From Hufsiella arboris (lineage in GTDB: Bacteria; Bacteroidota; Bacteroidia; Sphingobacteriales; Sphingobacteriaceae), in NCBI RefSeq assembly GCF_009834875.1, contig NZ_WVHT01000004.1, forward strand, positions 434,001 through 498,000: 64,000 nt of DNA. The letters run 5' to 3'. Made by a program: the position numbers and the translations under genes. The notes beneath the pieces are model-generated. The model was not told where the DNA came from. It saw only the letters and a list, made by a program, of their open reading frames with translations, and searched no databases. Shown here one piece after another: positions 12,107 through 62,323 of this stretch (within the stretch, counting starts at the first letter, position 1; each line of letters opens with the position of its first letter).

Positions 12107-12805
12107 CTTTGTTCTGCGAAGTGTTAAGCGCAGCGTCACTTCGCGATTTATATAGATAAAGGTCTCTGACCTTGTTGGTTGTAGAGATGCTGTGATTTGA
12201 GATAAATGTGTCAGAGACACAGATTTATTATACACTTTTAAGTCGCCCTGCGGAAGACTTAAAAGAACCTGAGACTTAAAAAAACCTTTGTTCTGCGAAG
12301 TGTTAAGCGCAGTGCCACTTCGCAGTTAAAATAGATAAAGGTCTCTGACCTTGTTGGTTGTAGAGATACTGTGATTTGGGGATAAATGTGTCAGAGACAC
12401 AGATTTATTAAATTCTTTTAAGTCGCCCTGCGGAAGACTTAAAAGAACCTGAGAATTAAAAGAACCTTTGTTCTGCGAAGTGTTAAGCGCAGCGTCACTT
12501 CGCGGTTAAAATAGATAAAGGTCTCTGACCTTGTTGGTTATAAAGATGCTGTGATTTGAGATAAATGTGTCAGAGACACAGATTTATTACACACTTTTAA
12601 GTCGCCCTGCGGAAGACTTAAAAGAACCTGAGTTAAAAGAACCTTTGTTCTGCGAAGTGTTAAGCGTAGTGTCACTTCGCAGTTAAAATCGATAAAGGTC
12701 TCTGACCTTGTTGGTTGTAGAAATAGTGTGATTTGGGATAAATGTGTCAGAGGCACAGATTTATTAAGTTCTTTTAAGTCGCCCTGCGGAAGACTTAAAA
12801 GAACC
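12107..12805. repeat. Four-unit tandem array of about 180 bp multi-hairpin repeats
   Basis: Units start at 12107, 12286, 12466 and 12643 (179, 180 and 177 bp, the last truncated at about 163). Each carries four inverted repeats: an 8 bp stem GCGAAGTG/CACTTCGC, AAGGTC-TCT-GACCTT, TGTGTC-AGA-GACACA, and a 10 bp stem CTTTTAAGTC/GACTTAAAAG. The second and third hairpins share a complementary 9 nt core (GTCTCTGAC and GTCAGAGAC), so they could also pair with each other. Loops vary between units while stems are unchanged. Frames through the array are shadows. Confidence 0.9.
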
Positions 12806-12827
12806 AACGTATCCCTTTGCCAAAGAA

Positions 12828-12953
12828 CTACTGAATCGACAGGTAGGCGTATACCTTTTCGGCCTCCTCCGAACCGACTTCCATCCGCACGAGCATTTCT
12901 TCCATATCCAGCTCCCCGGGAGTACCCGTTTTGATTCCCAGGAAAGGAGGCAT
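12828..12953 (-). CDS. Unrecognised 41-residue frame, probable gene remnant
   Basis: A short acidic frame (starts MPPFLGIKTGTPGELDMEEM, ends VYAYLSIQ). I do not recognise it. Its ATG lies about 10 nt beyond the terminator that closes the gene at 13056, so it lacks room for its own promoter. Its 3' end runs into the 30 bp sequence that is duplicated at 11932-11961. It may be the tail of a gene cut by rearrangement around the hairpin array. Confidence 0.2.
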   Translation of the reverse strand: MPPFLGIKTGTPGELDMEEMLVRMEVGSEEAEKVYAYLSIQ

Positions 12954-12962
12954 GATCAAACG

Positions 12963-12991
12963 AAAAAAGGCCACCCAGGGCGACCTTTTAC
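12963..12991 (-). terminator. Rho-independent terminator after the 13056 lipoprotein gene
   Basis: On the minus strand, AAAAGGTCGCC and GGTGGCCTTTTTT form a stem with two G-U pairs followed by a T run. It lies 65 nt after the stop of the lipoprotein gene. Confidence 0.7.
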
Positions 12992-13055
12992 TAGTATCAT
13001 TTCTTAAACATCTGTAACTGGCCTGGCCAATCAGCCGATGTCTGAATCCTGATAA

Positions 13056-13571
13056 TTACTGCACGGTTGTAACCGTTGCCTGGAACGAGCCTTCCGAAAA
13101 TGTTTTGGTAGCGCCCGCTTCGTTTTTGGCAGTGAACTCAAAGGTTCCGGAAATCAGCTTATCCGTAGACGACGTGATTTTCACGGTTCCTGAAACGCTG
13201 TCGTAGGATTGTGATTTCGCTATGTCAGCTAAATAAACACCTGTCGCCGCGTTGCCTTCGAAGCTCGGCTGGTCTTCGGTAAGCACCTTGTATTCGCCGA
13301 CTTTAGAATCGGTTAACATCAAAGCGACACCTTCATTGGTGCTGAACTGGCCTTGTATAGTTAATGCTGTAACGCCAGCGACTTTCATTACACCGGCCAC
13401 AACAGGCCCCGTGCTGTTTTTCTTTTGCCCGTCGATTTTAACGCTCAGGTAAGGACTATCAGCCGGTTTGTCGTCGTCGCTTTTCTTGCAAGACGCCAGT
13501 GAAAGTGTACAGGCGATGAACAATGCCAGTAATTTAACAGAAGGATTTAGGGTAAACATTTTCATATTCAT
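13056..13571 (-). CDS. Small lipoprotein, DUF6252-like
   Basis: A 171-residue predicted lipoprotein. A signal peptide with lipobox (LSLASC, Cys at about 28) is followed by the charged linker KKSDDDKPAD. The mature part is beta-rich, with VKIDGQKK near its start and a closing strand pattern (ISGTFEFTAKNE, then FSEGSFQATV) typical of small Bacteroidota surface lipoproteins of the DUF6252 type. Function is unknown. It stands alone between repeat-rich stretches and has its own terminator at 12963-12991. An upstream ATG three codons earlier (MNMKMF) is used here; starting at the second Met would not change the signal peptide. Confidence 0.8.
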   Translation of the reverse strand: MNMKMFTLNPSVKLLALFIACTLSLASCKKSDDDKPADSPYLSVKIDGQKKNSTGPVVAGVMKVAGVTALTIQGQFSTNEGVALMLTDSKVGEYKVLTEDQPSFEGNAATGVYLADIAKSQSYDSVSGTVKITSSTDKLISGTFEFTAKNEAGATKTFSEGSFQATVTTVQ

Positions 13572-13764
13572 AATAAGATTTAGTTTTATACCGCTAAAGT
13601 ATTACTTATAACTTAAAAACCAAGCGCTGTAAAACACCTTTTTTATTACCGTTAAATAACCCATTTTATTCCGGGTGTTTTACGACATTAAATCTCGCCC
13701 GTCATTTAAAAGAGCGGAAGCAGGGAGCGACTGAGGAATCCAATCAAACTTTAGAAAGATTTCT

Positions 13765-13975
13765 CCTAACGTCGAAATGACGGTTATGTATCCGGGTTGA
13801 AATGACGGTTATGCCCTCTGTTCTGTGAAGTGTTAAGAGCAGCGTCTCTTCGCGGTTTAAAGTAGACAGAAGTCTCTGACCTCGGTATATATTGCTAAAA
13901 ATCTCTGTTCTGCGAAGTGTTAAGCGCAGCGTCACTTCGCGGTTTAAAATAAATAGAGGTCTCTGACCTCTTGAC
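13765..13975. repeat. Partial units of the hairpin array and a dispersed repeat
   Basis: Two partial copies of the first half of the 12107-12805 unit (GCGAAGTG/CACTTCGC stem plus the GTCTCTGACC core) lie at about 13816-13880 and 13903-13970. Just before them is a short dispersed element (TTTCTCCTAACGTCGAAATG). The rest of 13572-14305 shows no gene. Confidence 0.7.
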
Positions 13976-22404: not shown

Positions 22405-22600
22405 ACTGGTTTATTTTTCTAAACTTACCAGTATTGCCGGCATTAAACGGGGGCGGTATGCGACAAAAAGAGGATGCTTGCGACAGGATAAGCGAGGTAA
22501 TTTTTCGCGCCTCTCGGCGGCTATGAGCCCGGCTGACAATAAAAATAGCATGGCCAGATGTTTATGAAAGTTAGTCCGCCTCTCCGCCGGCGGCTGGCTC

Positions 22601-22638
22601 TTTCTTTTCTCTTGAAAGAAAAGAAACAAAAGTTCAAG
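22601..22638. repeat. Pseudoknot-type inverted repeat, copy 1
   Basis: Stem 1 TTTCTTTTCT (22601-22610) pairs with AGAAAAGAAA (22617-22626). Its loop CTTGAA (22611-22616) is complementary to TTCAAG (22633-22638), 6 nt past the stem. An identical copy is at 23289-23326. Confidence 0.75.
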
Positions 22639-24016
22639 GCTTCAAATTTTTGCGCTAAAAACCCGGTGATCCGGCCTGTCGCAATCAGAGCCGTGGGAGT
22701 GGAAGTGACGTATGATTGCTTTTGCAACACTCGCTAATCGCTTATTACAAGACGGTTTGAGTATTATTAGTGGCCGAATCATCGTTTTTTCTTAACGCCA
22801 AAAATTTGCAGGCCGCAGACGTACTATCAACGGCAGTAAGAATATGATCGTTTGCCGGGGACAGCAATTCATGATCTGTAGAAACTTGGATTAGGGCAGG
22901 AAGCCAACATTCAAATTGTCATAGGTTTTTCCGAAGCACGCACCGGCCTTCGAAGATTTGGAAGTAAAGGCCTGCTTCGACTCCGCTCAGCATTTTAATG
23001 TTACCGAAATATAGTGGTGGCCTGTCATGGTGAGCGGAGTCGAACCATGCGCCTAAAAGATTTACTGAGGATTTACGACAAATATTCGGCAGCCTTGATT
23101 TACTCAGCTGTATTTATCGTTTTCAATTGTCTTCGTGGTCTCTTCACCCTACGGGTGCCTCGGCATTGTTAAACTTTGTATCAAGACAAAGTTTATAGGC
23201 CTCGGGCGGCTATGAGCCCGACTAACAATAAATAGGCACCACCAGCTGTTTATGAAAGCTAGTCCGCCTCTCCGCCGGCGGCTGGCTCTTTCTTTTCTCT
23301 TGAAAGAAAAGAAACAAAAGTTCAAGGCTTCAAATTTTTGTGCTAAAAACCCGGTGATCTGGCCTGCCGCAATCAGAGCCGTGGCAACGGAGTGACGTAT
23401 GATTGCTTTTGCAACACTCGCTGATCGCTTGTATTACGAGACGGTTTGAGTCTTATCCGTGGCAAAATCACCGCGTTTTCTTAACGCCAAAAATTTGCAG
23501 GCCGCAGACGTACTATCAATGGCAGTAAGAATATGATCGGTTGCCAAGGACAGCAACTTATGATCTGCAGTAACTTAAATCGATGGCAGGAAGCGAGCGA
23601 TCAAGCTTCCACGGTCTGCTCCGAAGTACGCTGGCAAGACGCAAGTGCCTGCAAGAATTAAAAACAGTAGCAGCTATTTAAATTTTACAGTGCCAAGCCT
23701 ATAGCGCAACGGTTTTGCGATGTGTTTGTATTTACTTTCGACTAAGCAGGGACGAGCAAAAATAAGCGCCCCTGTTTTAATTGCGTATTGGCCTGTGCAG
23801 AGAAGGCACCTAGCGGATTGACAAGATCTATTCAGTAGCTTTTAATTGTTTTTAAAGGCCTTCATGAGCTTGCTTGCAGCAAGGTTTTGTTTCTTTCCAT
23901 CGACTGGGAAAGAAATGCCATGCCGGCACGAGGCATAAAATAATTCAACCGCTCTCCGCCGCGGGGGCACCCTCCTTTTTATTCAAGTTGTTAATTGTTT
24001 CAATGGCTTTCATGAG

Positions 24017-24059
24017 CTCCTTTTAGTCGGTTCTTGATAAAAAGGAGGCAAAAATCAAG
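24017..24059. repeat. Pseudoknot-type inverted repeat, variant with longer loop
   Basis: Stem CTCCTTTT (24017-24024) with AAAAGGAG (24040-24047). The loop contains CTTGAT (24033-24038), complementary to ATCAAG (24054-24059), again 6 nt past the stem. Confidence 0.6.
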
Positions 24060-24712
24060 AAAAGAAATAAGCTTCAGCCGCACTGTCACACGCATGGCCC
24101 GAGTGCTGAGCGTGCGCAGGTTGGCGGAAGCCGGATGGAGCATCTTTTCAGTCCCCCGCTCGCCGGATTTCACGCCGACTGTAAAGCGCCACAAAGCCTG
24201 ATCATAGTGTTTTCTTCACGCCAAAAATTTGCAGGCCGAAGACGTACTATCAAAGACAGTGATCTATGATCGGTTGCCGGGGACAGCAATTCATGATTTG
24301 TAGTAACTTAGATCAGCGGCAGGAAGCTGACATTCAAATTCTAACAGGCCACTCCGAAGCACGTACCGGCCTTCGAAGATTTGGAAGTAAAGACCTGCTT
24401 CGACTCCGCTCAGCATTTTAATGTTACCGAAATATAGTGGTGGCCTGTCATGGTGAGCGGAGTCGAACCATGCGCCTCAAAGATTTATTGAGAATTTGCG
24501 ACAAAGATTCGGCAGCCTTGATTTACTCAGCCGTATTTATCGTTTTCAATTGTCTTCGTGGTCTCTTCACCCTACGGGTGCCTAGGCATTGTTAAACTTT
24601 GTATCAAGACAAAGTTTATAGGCCTTCGGGCGGCTATGAGCCCGGCTGACAATAAAAAGGCACAGCCAGTTGCTTATGAAAGTTAGTCCGCCTCATTGCC
24701 GGCGGCTGGCTA

Positions 24713-24750
24713 GTTCTTTTTTCTTGATAAAAAAGAACGAAAAAATCAAG
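24713..24750. repeat. Pseudoknot-type inverted repeat, copy with changed stem and loop
   Basis: Stem GTTCTTTTTT (24713-24722) with AAAAAAGAAC (24729-24738). Loop CTTGAT (24723-24728) is complementary to ATCAAG (24745-24750), with a 6 nt spacer GAAAAA. Both arms differ from copy 1, yet both helices stay perfect. Confidence 0.75.
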
Positions 24751-25259
24751 GCTTCAAATTTTTGTGCTAAAAACCCGGTGATCCGGCCTGTCGCAATCAG
24801 AGCCGTGGGAGCGGAAGTGATGTATGATTGCTTTTGCAACACTCGCTGATCGCTTGTATTACGAGACGGTTTGAGTATTATCACAAAGCCGGACCACCGC
24901 GTTTTTTTAACGCCAAAAATTTGCAGGCCGACATCGTGCTATTAACGGCAGCAAGAATATGATTGGTTGCCGGGACAGCAATTCATGATCTGTAGTAACT
25001 TAAATCAGGGGCAGGAAGCTAACGTTCAAGCCTCTCCGTGCTACTCCGAAGTACGCTGGCAAGACGCAAGTGCCGGATAAATTAAAAACAGTAGTAGTTT
25101 CCTTAAATTTTGCAGTGCCAAGCCTATAGCGTAGCGGTTTTGCGATGTATTTGTATTTACTTTCGGCTAAGCAGGGACGAGCAAAAATAAGCGCAATTGT
25201 TTTTAATTGCGTATTGGCCTGTGCAGCAAAGGCACCTAGCGGATTGACAAGCCCTTTTG

Positions 25260-25291
25260 TTTCCTTTTGGGGCTATCAAAAGGAAATGCCC
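25260..25291. repeat. Pseudoknot-type inverted repeat, GGGC-loop variant
   Basis: Stem TTTCCTTTTG (25260-25269) with CAAAAGGAAA (25277-25286). Loop GGGC (25270-25273) is complementary to GCCC (25288-25291) next to the stem. Confidence 0.55.
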
Positions 25292-25332
25292 GCAGGCATG
25301 AGGCCTAAAATAATTCAACCGCTCTACGCCAG

Positions 25333-40523: not shown

Positions 40524-41053
40524 TTAATTATTCCTCGATAATCTTCCCGAATGCGCAAAATTACATCAAAAAGCTCAAAGCAAAAAGTTTTAAATGGTAA
40601 AGCTTTTGTGGGAATAATCGGCAAATCAGCGGCTTAGGAGTTCTGACAGTTAGATGATAATTGGGTAATTAGATAATTGATGACGTCAGTTTTAATTGTA
40701 AAGGATATTGGCTTTGAATTTAATTCGAAAATGAGCGGTCGCAATTCTTGGCAACAGCAGACCGATGAAAAAAGGAACTTGCTTTACAAAAAAATAGAAT
40801 ATTAAAATTTGCTTATCCAAAGTAGTTAGAAGAGCCTTGTTTTGCCAACAGAGTCGTAACAGTAGGCACTAATTGAAAATGAGCGGCAGCAAATCTTGGC
40901 AACAGTAGCCCCGCTCTTTATTTCAAGTTTTTTGCGAACGGTTATGACAAACCGAATGTCTGTGACAGCAAAAAAGCTTTCCATTTCAATCGGGTTTATT
41001 GTACCAAGGCCTGCTTTTTCATCGGCCCGGTTGAGAATTAACAACCACTAACG
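40524..41053. other. Gap with a short duplicated element, no gene
   Basis: Two similar segments, around 40725-40766 and 40873-40912, share GAAAATGAGCGG and TCTTGGCAACAG. No credible gene is present. The upstream promoter of ccmE should lie near 40530-40600. Confidence 0.5.
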
Positions 41054-61544: not shown

Positions 61545-61577
61545 AGGGCATTTCCTTTTGATAGCCCTAAAAGGAAA
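61545..61577. repeat. Pseudoknot-type inverted repeat, AGGGC variant
   Basis: Stem TTTCCTTTT (61551-61559) with AAAAGGAAA (61569-61577). Loop GCCCT (61564-61568) is complementary to AGGGC (61545-61549) just outside the stem. Confidence 0.55.
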
Positions 61578-62154
61578 CAATCTGGCTGTGCCTTTTTATT
61601 GTTAGCCGGGCTCATAGCCGCCCGAAGGCCTAGTCCTTTCCCTTCAGCTGGAAAGGACCAAAGAGCCGCCGGCTTCACCGCTCTTCAGCTAAAAGTTTAT
61701 GCTGATAACGGGAGCGCAGCGAAGAGCCGTGGGAATGGCAGCGATTATTGATCGTTGCTGCTACACTCGCTTCATCTGCTTGGCAATGCAAATGATAGGA
61801 TCTGCAGCGCCATCACCACAAACTTTCTTAACGCTGAATCCGCTGTTGCCGGATGCCACGATCAACGGCAGTAATGTATGATCGTTTGTTTCCTACTACT
61901 GATCTAAGTAGTACAGATCATGAATTGCTGTCCCGGCAAACGGTCATAAATCACTGTCTTTGATAGTACGCTGTCGGCCTGCAAATTTTTGGCGTTAAGA
62001 AAACGCGGTGATTCGACTTTGTGATAAGACTCAAACTGACTCGGAATACAAGCAATCAGCGAGTGTTGCAAAAGCAATCATACGTCACTTCCGCTCGCAC
62101 GGCTCTGATTGCGACAGGCCGAGTCTTCGGGTTTTTAGCACAAAAATTTGAAGC

Positions 62155-62192
62155 CTTGATTTTTTCGTTCTTTTTTATCAAGAAAAAAGAAC
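62155..62192. repeat. Pseudoknot-type inverted repeat, inverted copy
   Basis: Reverse complement of the 24713-24750 element. Stem GTTCTTTTTT (62167-62176) with AAAAAAGAAC (62183-62192); loop ATCAAG (62177-62182) is complementary to CTTGAT (62155-62160). Confidence 0.75.
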
Positions 62193-62286: not shown

Positions 62287-62323
62287 AAACTTTGTCTTGA
62301 TACAAAGTTTAACAAAGATCAAG
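62287..62323. repeat. Pseudoknot-type inverted repeat, AAACTTTGT variant
   Basis: Stem AAACTTTGT (62287-62295) with ACAAAGTTT (62302-62310). Loop CTTGAT (62296-62301) is complementary to ATCAAG (62318-62323), 7 nt past the stem. At 23.17 and 24.6 kb the same stem is present, but its partner is displaced by an insertion. Confidence 0.7.

Follow-up and report, generated by a model that had tools for sequence, protein, structure and literature searches.

A phylum-wide family of pseudoknot-headed repeats in Bacteroidota with signs of a mobile DNA element

Within a 64-kb stretch of the Hufsiella arboris genome (64,000 nucleotides, hereafter the window) lie several short repeats in which the loop of a hairpin is complementary to a segment just beyond its stem. 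These copies raise the question of what such a repeat is: whether its fold is under selection, whether the fold belongs to DNA or to RNA, and how the copies came to be dispersed. The best explanation we can offer, to which we give somewhat less than an even chance, is that they belong to a dispersed mobile DNA element, non-autonomous, which owes its ends and its identity to a fold and not to a fixed sequence.

Copies in the 64-kb window

We scanned the window for stems of at least 8 bp with loops of 5-8 nt and partners of at least 5 bp, using 20 shuffled windows as a control. The scan gave six matches in the window, against none in 19 of the 20 shuffled windows and one in the other; intact CTTGAW pseudoknots numbered five, compared with 0-1 per shuffled window. 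Their heads begin at 22601, 23289, 24713 and 62287 on the plus strand and at 62192 on the minus strand. The preliminary description of this DNA had claimed that the window copies share a stem and a loop pairing just beyond it, and that the partner of the CTTGAW loop switches with the loop, and both claims were borne out: in all five intact copies CTTGAA or CTTGAT is wholly paired by TTCAAG or ATCAAG, respectively, 6-7 nt past the stem.

Copy 1 (plus strand) illustrates the layout. It opens with a GC-rich hairpin, PK-A, at 22576-22598 (CCGCC-TCTCCGCC-GGCGG-CT-GGC), whose loop GCC is able to pair with the 3' GGC; the assignment draws on the sequence and, family-wide, on stem variation and on GCC/GGC versus GGC/GCC pairs. 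The head itself, PK-B, occupies 22601-22638 (sequence and scan), with stem arms at 22601-22610 and 22617-22626, the loop CTTGAA at 22611-22616, the linker CAAAAG and the partner TTCAAG at 22633-22638. The 3' body that follows (22638-22814) is a long hairpin closed by GGC..AAATTTTTG / CAAAAATTT..GGCC and carrying the bulge motif GCTAAAA / TTAACGCC. Copy 2, also on the plus strand, has PK-A and PK-B at 23264-23326 (scan; stem 23289-23314, partner TTCAAG 23321-23326) and its body at 23326-23503. Copy 3 has the same parts on the same strand at 24688-24750 (sequence and scan; PK-A 24688-24710, stem 24713-24738, loop CTTGAT, partner ATCAAG 24745-24750), with the body at 24750-24929. PK-B of copy 4 was located by the scan at 62155-62192 on the minus strand (stem 62192-62167, loop CTTGAT, partner ATCAAG 62160-62155), and its body, at 61976-62155 on that strand, ends with GGCC near 61976; the copy earlier reported at 62155 is thus genuine, with its strand now corrected. 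PK-B of copy 5 lies on the plus strand at 62287-62323 (sequence and scan), with the stem AAACTTTGT at 62287-62310, the loop CTTGAT at 62296-62301 and the partner ATCAAG at 62318-62323.

Three further loci of the preliminary description stood only in part. The copy at 24017-24059 (plus strand) does have a CTTGAT loop (24033-24038) and an ATCAAG partner (24054-24059), but its stem, CTCCTTTT / AAAAGGAG, is imperfect, with 8 perfect bp and extra bases in the 5' arm. At 25250-25286 the common architecture fits on the minus strand, where a stem at 25286-25260 and a CAAAA linker accompany 5 bp between AGCCC within the loop and GGGCT at 25254-25250, whereas the plus-strand reading gives 4 bp. The locus placed at 61545 is ambiguous: on the plus strand (61551-61587) a hairpin at 61551-61577 has an AGCC loop pairing through 4 bp with GGCT at 61584-61587, and the minus strand offers 5 bp between AGGGC and GCCCT. 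Overall, the GGGC copies suit the architecture less well than the CTTGAW copies. We agree that the hairpin at 23890 lies outside the loop rule.

Two minus-strand copies carry an insert of about 60-70 bp. At 23094-23195 the hairpin (23195-23170) has its matching ATCAAG shifted to 23099-23094, and at 24517-24618 the hairpin (24618-24593) has it shifted to 24522-24517. Inserts of 45-70 nt exactly between linker and partner were seen in several genera (..GAGACCACGAAG..AACAATAA..TGAATAA, then ATCAAG), at 23100-23165 and 24523-24588 in the window and also at loci L074, L056 and L330, an arrangement that resembles an enlarged third loop of the pseudoknot. A matching partner survives in the window copies and in those of L074 and L330; L056 has a mismatched one, and the copies of genome G112 have lost it. 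A second class of hairpins (window 61633-61658; L062:1945-1995), with loops CTTCAGCT, CTGTAGCA and CTGCAGCA, shares the GC-rich 5' half and CAAAA linker of the family and has a different body; the partner mostly shows one A.C mismatch. The window also holds another tandem hairpin array at 12116-13940, in which CTTTTAAGTC-GCCCTGCGGAA-GACTTAAAAG alternates with CTGCGAAGTG..CACTTCGCAG at a period of about 178 bp, and a Flavo-1 RNA (RF01705) at 40903-41001 on the minus strand (47.7 bits), of which there is a weak copy at L074:2716-2794, likewise on the minus strand.

Helices of the head and of the closing hairpin

Across the family, PK-B runs from an AT-rich stem of 10 or 11 bp through a 6-nt loop and an A-rich linker, nearly always of 6 nt, to a 6-nt partner. 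In an alignment of 132 distinct copies that was fitted to stem 1, and not to helix 2, pairing reached 98.1% in stem 1 and 96.1% in helix 2. These copies showed 234 two-sided changes, compared with 5-25 in slid versions, and a covariation score of 0.344, compared with 0.04-0.06 for slid partners; none of 500 shuffles reached the observed values.

Change on both sides of both helices had been proposed for the family. In helix 2 of the CTTGAW class one pair in six varies freely; the other five (CTTGA/TCAAG) are near-invariant and so uninformative. The variable pair, between loop base 6 and partner base 1, was T-A, A-T or C-G in 101 of the 104 copies of the covariance-model set, and was matched in 132 of 134 copies found with a pattern that allowed A and T alone on each side. 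Loop and flank do not mismatch at the chance rate, as they would if the preliminary description were wrong: when the search pattern constrained neither base, the pair was matched in 245 of 249 copies, most of whose loci had entered the set through previous searches for this family. More than one type can be present within a genome, as seen in several cases and with the pair nearly always matched, and the changes in helix 2 are therefore not one event. Helix 2 can also be replaced as a whole, giving the classes AGCCC/GGGCT, GTAGCA/TGCTAC and CGGCC/GGCCG, and a further class CGGGAC/GTCCTG with one G.T.

Copies from many orders, L202, L218, L231 and L256 among them, repeatedly have A opposite C at pair 7 of stem 1 (TTCATTTT.T / A.AAAACGAA), always in one orientation; this mismatch would read G.U on the opposite strand.

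The head is often preceded in the family of H. arboris by PK-A, a GC-rich second pseudoknot with variable stems (CCGCC/GGCGG, CCCGC/GCGGG, TCGGC/GCCGA, TCTGC/GCAGA, TGCCC/GGGCA and others) and with either the loop TCATNGCC and flank GGC or the loop TCATTGGC and flank GCC. It is followed by a closing hairpin, the first base of which is the last G of the partner. In one closing type the first helix, starting from the last G of TCAAG, is exactly 9 bp long, with 35 distinct arms in 46 perfect copies; a perfect 9-mer was present in 69 of 269 copies, compared with 5 of 1345 when arms were swapped between copies. The second type, to which the window copies belong, is a long hairpin body whose two sides carry GCTAA and TTAACGC, respectively. 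The latter motif occurred within 330 nt in 34 of 123 copies and in none on the opposite strand. The window body folds only modestly better than its shuffles (z -1.66), and that of a clearer relative does so strongly (z -3.94).

The helices and the pseudoknot head are well supported. The earlier suggestion of selection on structure draws support from the covariation of stem 1 and helix 2, the whole-helix-2 swaps and the variable 9-bp closing helix, and selection appears to act on the shape and not on the sequence. This conclusion carries reservations: repeat copies are not mutually independent, one base pair carries most of the helix-2 covariation, and template switching, a mutational route, can also keep inverted repeats perfect. 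Nor would the pairing data in themselves imply that the fold is RNA.

Distribution and signs of mobility

A covariance model built from ten copies of the H. arboris genome found matches in 104 of 200 relatives and in 43 of 91 genera, with 1-26 copies per matched relative, other families of the class included. We also searched 84,980 species genomes with a pattern in which the loop-side 3' arm, the linker and TCAAG were fixed and the 5' arm was free. Among the matches listed, Bacteroidota were broadly represented, together with related phyla, a Neomarinimicrobiota metagenome-assembled genome and the fusobacterium Propionigenium maris. The orders of the listed matches are, by our own assignment (that of Propionigenium was looked up), Flavobacteriales, Bacteroidales, Sphingobacteriales, Chitinophagales, Saprospirales, Cytophagales, Balneolales and Ignavibacteriales. 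A strict pattern was present in 45 of 395 Bacteroidota genomes and its reversed control in none of the 395. P. maris has four copies (L224, L229 and L265), one with a 9-bp closing helix gaactttca/tgaaagttc, and these could reflect either horizontal transfer or an older origin. In predicted viral contigs (IMG/VR, L322-L343) 22 stretches carry the head, several of them on one 29.5-kb contig (L327 and L336); blastn searches of plasmid and phage collections with an 81-nt head gave no match.

Several observations bear on movement. Two units within one genome share 97.7% identity across 262 bp and lie in unrelated flanks, and the limits of this unit, CCGC.. to ..GCTGAC, are the first base of PK-A and the last base of the closing helix. 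Likewise, a Parabacteroides contig holds five copies of about 80 nt within 8 kb, again in unrelated flanks. Conservation among 17 Balneola-type copies is 0.8-0.99 from the foot of the stem to the foot of the closing hairpin and drops outside, with weaker similarity persisting for some tens of bases beyond the unit. Neither the CCGC...GCTGAC unit nor the Balneola-type unit has a terminal inverted repeat, no target duplication of at least 3 bp was found at the two sharply bounded copies (two copies only), and there is no open reading frame inside the units. Tandem arrays, in which copies recur roughly every 310-790 bp, are common, as are facing, palindromic pairs. The only genome from the same genus lacks the flanking gene.

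These results support reading the family as a mobile element with structure-defined ends, whose movement we infer from the copies themselves. Two contigs of the H. arboris assembly, C17 and C23, have their first approximately 130 bases inside these repeats; since contigs end within repeats, draft genomes probably give too low a number of copies. By breaking assemblies and filling intergenic arrays, the copies shape these genomes.

Explanations for the family and comparison with known systems

From 5' to 3', the unit comprises PK-A (optional), an AT-rich hairpin whose 6-nt loop is CTTGAW in the main class, an A-rich linker of about 6 nt, the partner, and a closing hairpin that ends the unit. 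We infer the following mechanism for a mobile DNA element of this kind. The structure would act as single-stranded DNA exposed in replication, where a putative nuclease or transposase, its gene lying at another place in the genome, would bind the fold and move the element in trans. By analogy with guide-target pairing in IS200/IS605 and REP systems, the loop-flank pairing could position the cleavage site, and tandem arrays might arise by read-through or rolling-circle copying. That helices 1 and 2 and the closing helix stay complementary despite two-sided change across the phylum supports the mobile-element reading, and indirect signs point to recognition as folded single-stranded DNA. Against the mobile-element reading, Y1 enzymes are absent from 32 of 104 element-bearing genomes and Y2 enzymes occur in only 13 of 200 relatives; moreover, the loop lies fully in helix 2, and a nucleotide for the crossing would become free only if stem 1 opened at its top pair. 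A bolder version, which we consider possible but doubtful, is a phylum-wide class of mobile DNA recognised by a putative enzyme as a single-stranded DNA pseudoknot, the loop serving as a built-in guide that would fix the cleavage site by pairing with the flank.

An unlikely alternative, and the one that survives best, is a family of structured non-coding RNAs of 80-250 nt, with copies as small RNA genes or UTR elements spread by duplication or in a passive mobile context. The H-type geometry, in which an A-rich loop crosses a stem of 10-11 bp, is as expected of an RNA pseudoknot; loop and bulge motifs are kept although the helices vary, as in RNA families; outside pair 7 and the ends of stem 1, G.T is slightly more frequent than A.C; and the conserved unpaired motifs GCTTCC..CGC and AACTCGC..GCTCARACAG would suit RNA. 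However, among 2250 cells of stem 1 as a whole we counted 19 G.T and 48 A.C, 19 of the latter at pair 7; single mismatches in the closing helix comprised seven GT and eight AC. Folding z-scores controlled for dinucleotide composition were equal on the two strands (-1.95 and -1.99, n=90), an apparent strand difference in folding energy (p=3e-20) having gone under that control. Since RNA would be expected to show G.U pairs and a strand preference, the rarity of G.T and the equal folding of both strands favour, without proving, a DNA-level structure. An antisense preference in gene orientation in one set (33 of 45, p=0.0025) was not repeated in a second (23 of 42, p=0.64). The repeats had no match in Rfam 15 at the gathering score, and ten loci no relevant match at E<=0.5, and near-identical copies within unrelated flanks also speak against an RNA family.

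It is rather improbable that the copies are REP/BIME-like repeats moved by a RAYT (Y1) enzyme, in which case they would represent the 'atypical secondary structures' that PMC6006769 reports next to genes of TnpA_Y1 subclass 2.6. Those Bacteroidetes-specific genes, the nearest published lead, have atypical structures at their flanks and copies of them elsewhere (PMC6006769). A RAYT-like Y1 gene of H. arboris does lie within an array of our elements (C53:27466-30729; L001), but it is bounded directly by a different palindrome, AGCCGGACnGAGTCCT. Within the family, Y1 occurs in 46 of 73 genomes with the element and 11 of 48 without (p=1.6e-5, ignoring phylogeny and genome size). Y1_Tnp is, however, present in 72 of the 104 element-bearing genomes and missing from the remaining 32, one of which has 22 copies, and of 32 Y1 loci only one, the gene bounded by the other palindrome, lies within 1.5 kb of a copy. 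IS91/Y2 enzymes were also rejected as mobilisers: PF04986, found in the 13 relatives given above, is absent from H. arboris and does not track the element. The links to RAYT/Y1 and to IS91 are weak or negative, no protein family is a recurrent neighbour of the copies, and no mobilising enzyme emerged among neighbour genes, Y1 or Y2.

Old repeats under no selection, their arms kept perfect by template switching (quasi-palindrome correction) in replication, make a very improbable explanation; two-sided changes that are almost purely Watson-Crick fit it, but it cannot conserve loop, linker and bulge motifs phylum-wide, the loop-to-flank helix is not a simple hairpin, and the stem (10-11), the linker (6) and the closing helix (9) each keep a fixed length. 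That the repeats are parts of an ordinary terminal-inverted-repeat transposon or MITE with a missed autonomous copy is least probable of all. The frequent palindromic pairs and arrays of facing copies would fit it, but sharply bounded single units have neither terminal inverted repeats nor target duplications of at least 3 bp, and no transposase recurs next to copies or between them.

The family spans the whole phylum with a strict architecture and a free sequence. We found no earlier description in the open-access literature, searched by family and sequence words, and annotation has apparently missed the family because sequence searches see short AT-rich pieces alone. Its helices offer ready tests by compensatory mutation, and finding what binds the fold would reveal either a new enzyme, for transposition or for DNA processing, or a large class of RNA not described before.

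Known systems resemble the mobile DNA element we favour in part. Like REP/BIME repeats with their RAYTs, the copies are small, intergenic and structured, numerous per genome, arranged in mosaics and inverted pairs, and have covarying stems. Unlike them, they form units of 80-250 nt with a loop-flank pseudoknot and a closing hairpin, are unlinked to a Y1 gene and occur in Y1-free genomes; by inspection there is no GTAG-type tetranucleotide at the stem foot, and the bases 5' of stem 1 vary, being GGCTA in the H. arboris family with none common elsewhere. MITE239, MITEPgRS and BrickBuilt of Porphyromonas gingivalis (PMC4596501) are also short, non-coding, dispersed and foldable, but possess IS5-type terminal inverted repeats (GAGACC.., ACGTGAG..) of a kind absent here. 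H-type pseudoknot RNAs match the 10-11 bp stem 1, 6-bp stem 2 and A-rich 6-nt third loop, whereas our fold has hardly any G.U and is strand-neutral. IS91 and Helitron elements share the lack of terminal inverted repeats and target duplications, the structured ends, the tandem arrays and a conserved CAAG, here at the head-body junction, but their Y2 transposases are rare among the relatives. Finally, IS200/IS605 elements and their non-autonomous derivatives also have ends with subterminal hairpins, without inverted repeats or target duplications, and the recognition proposed here likewise pairs a short guide with a short target; in those elements the guide lies 5' of the hairpin foot, whereas here the hairpin loop itself pairs with a target about 6 nt 3' of the stem.
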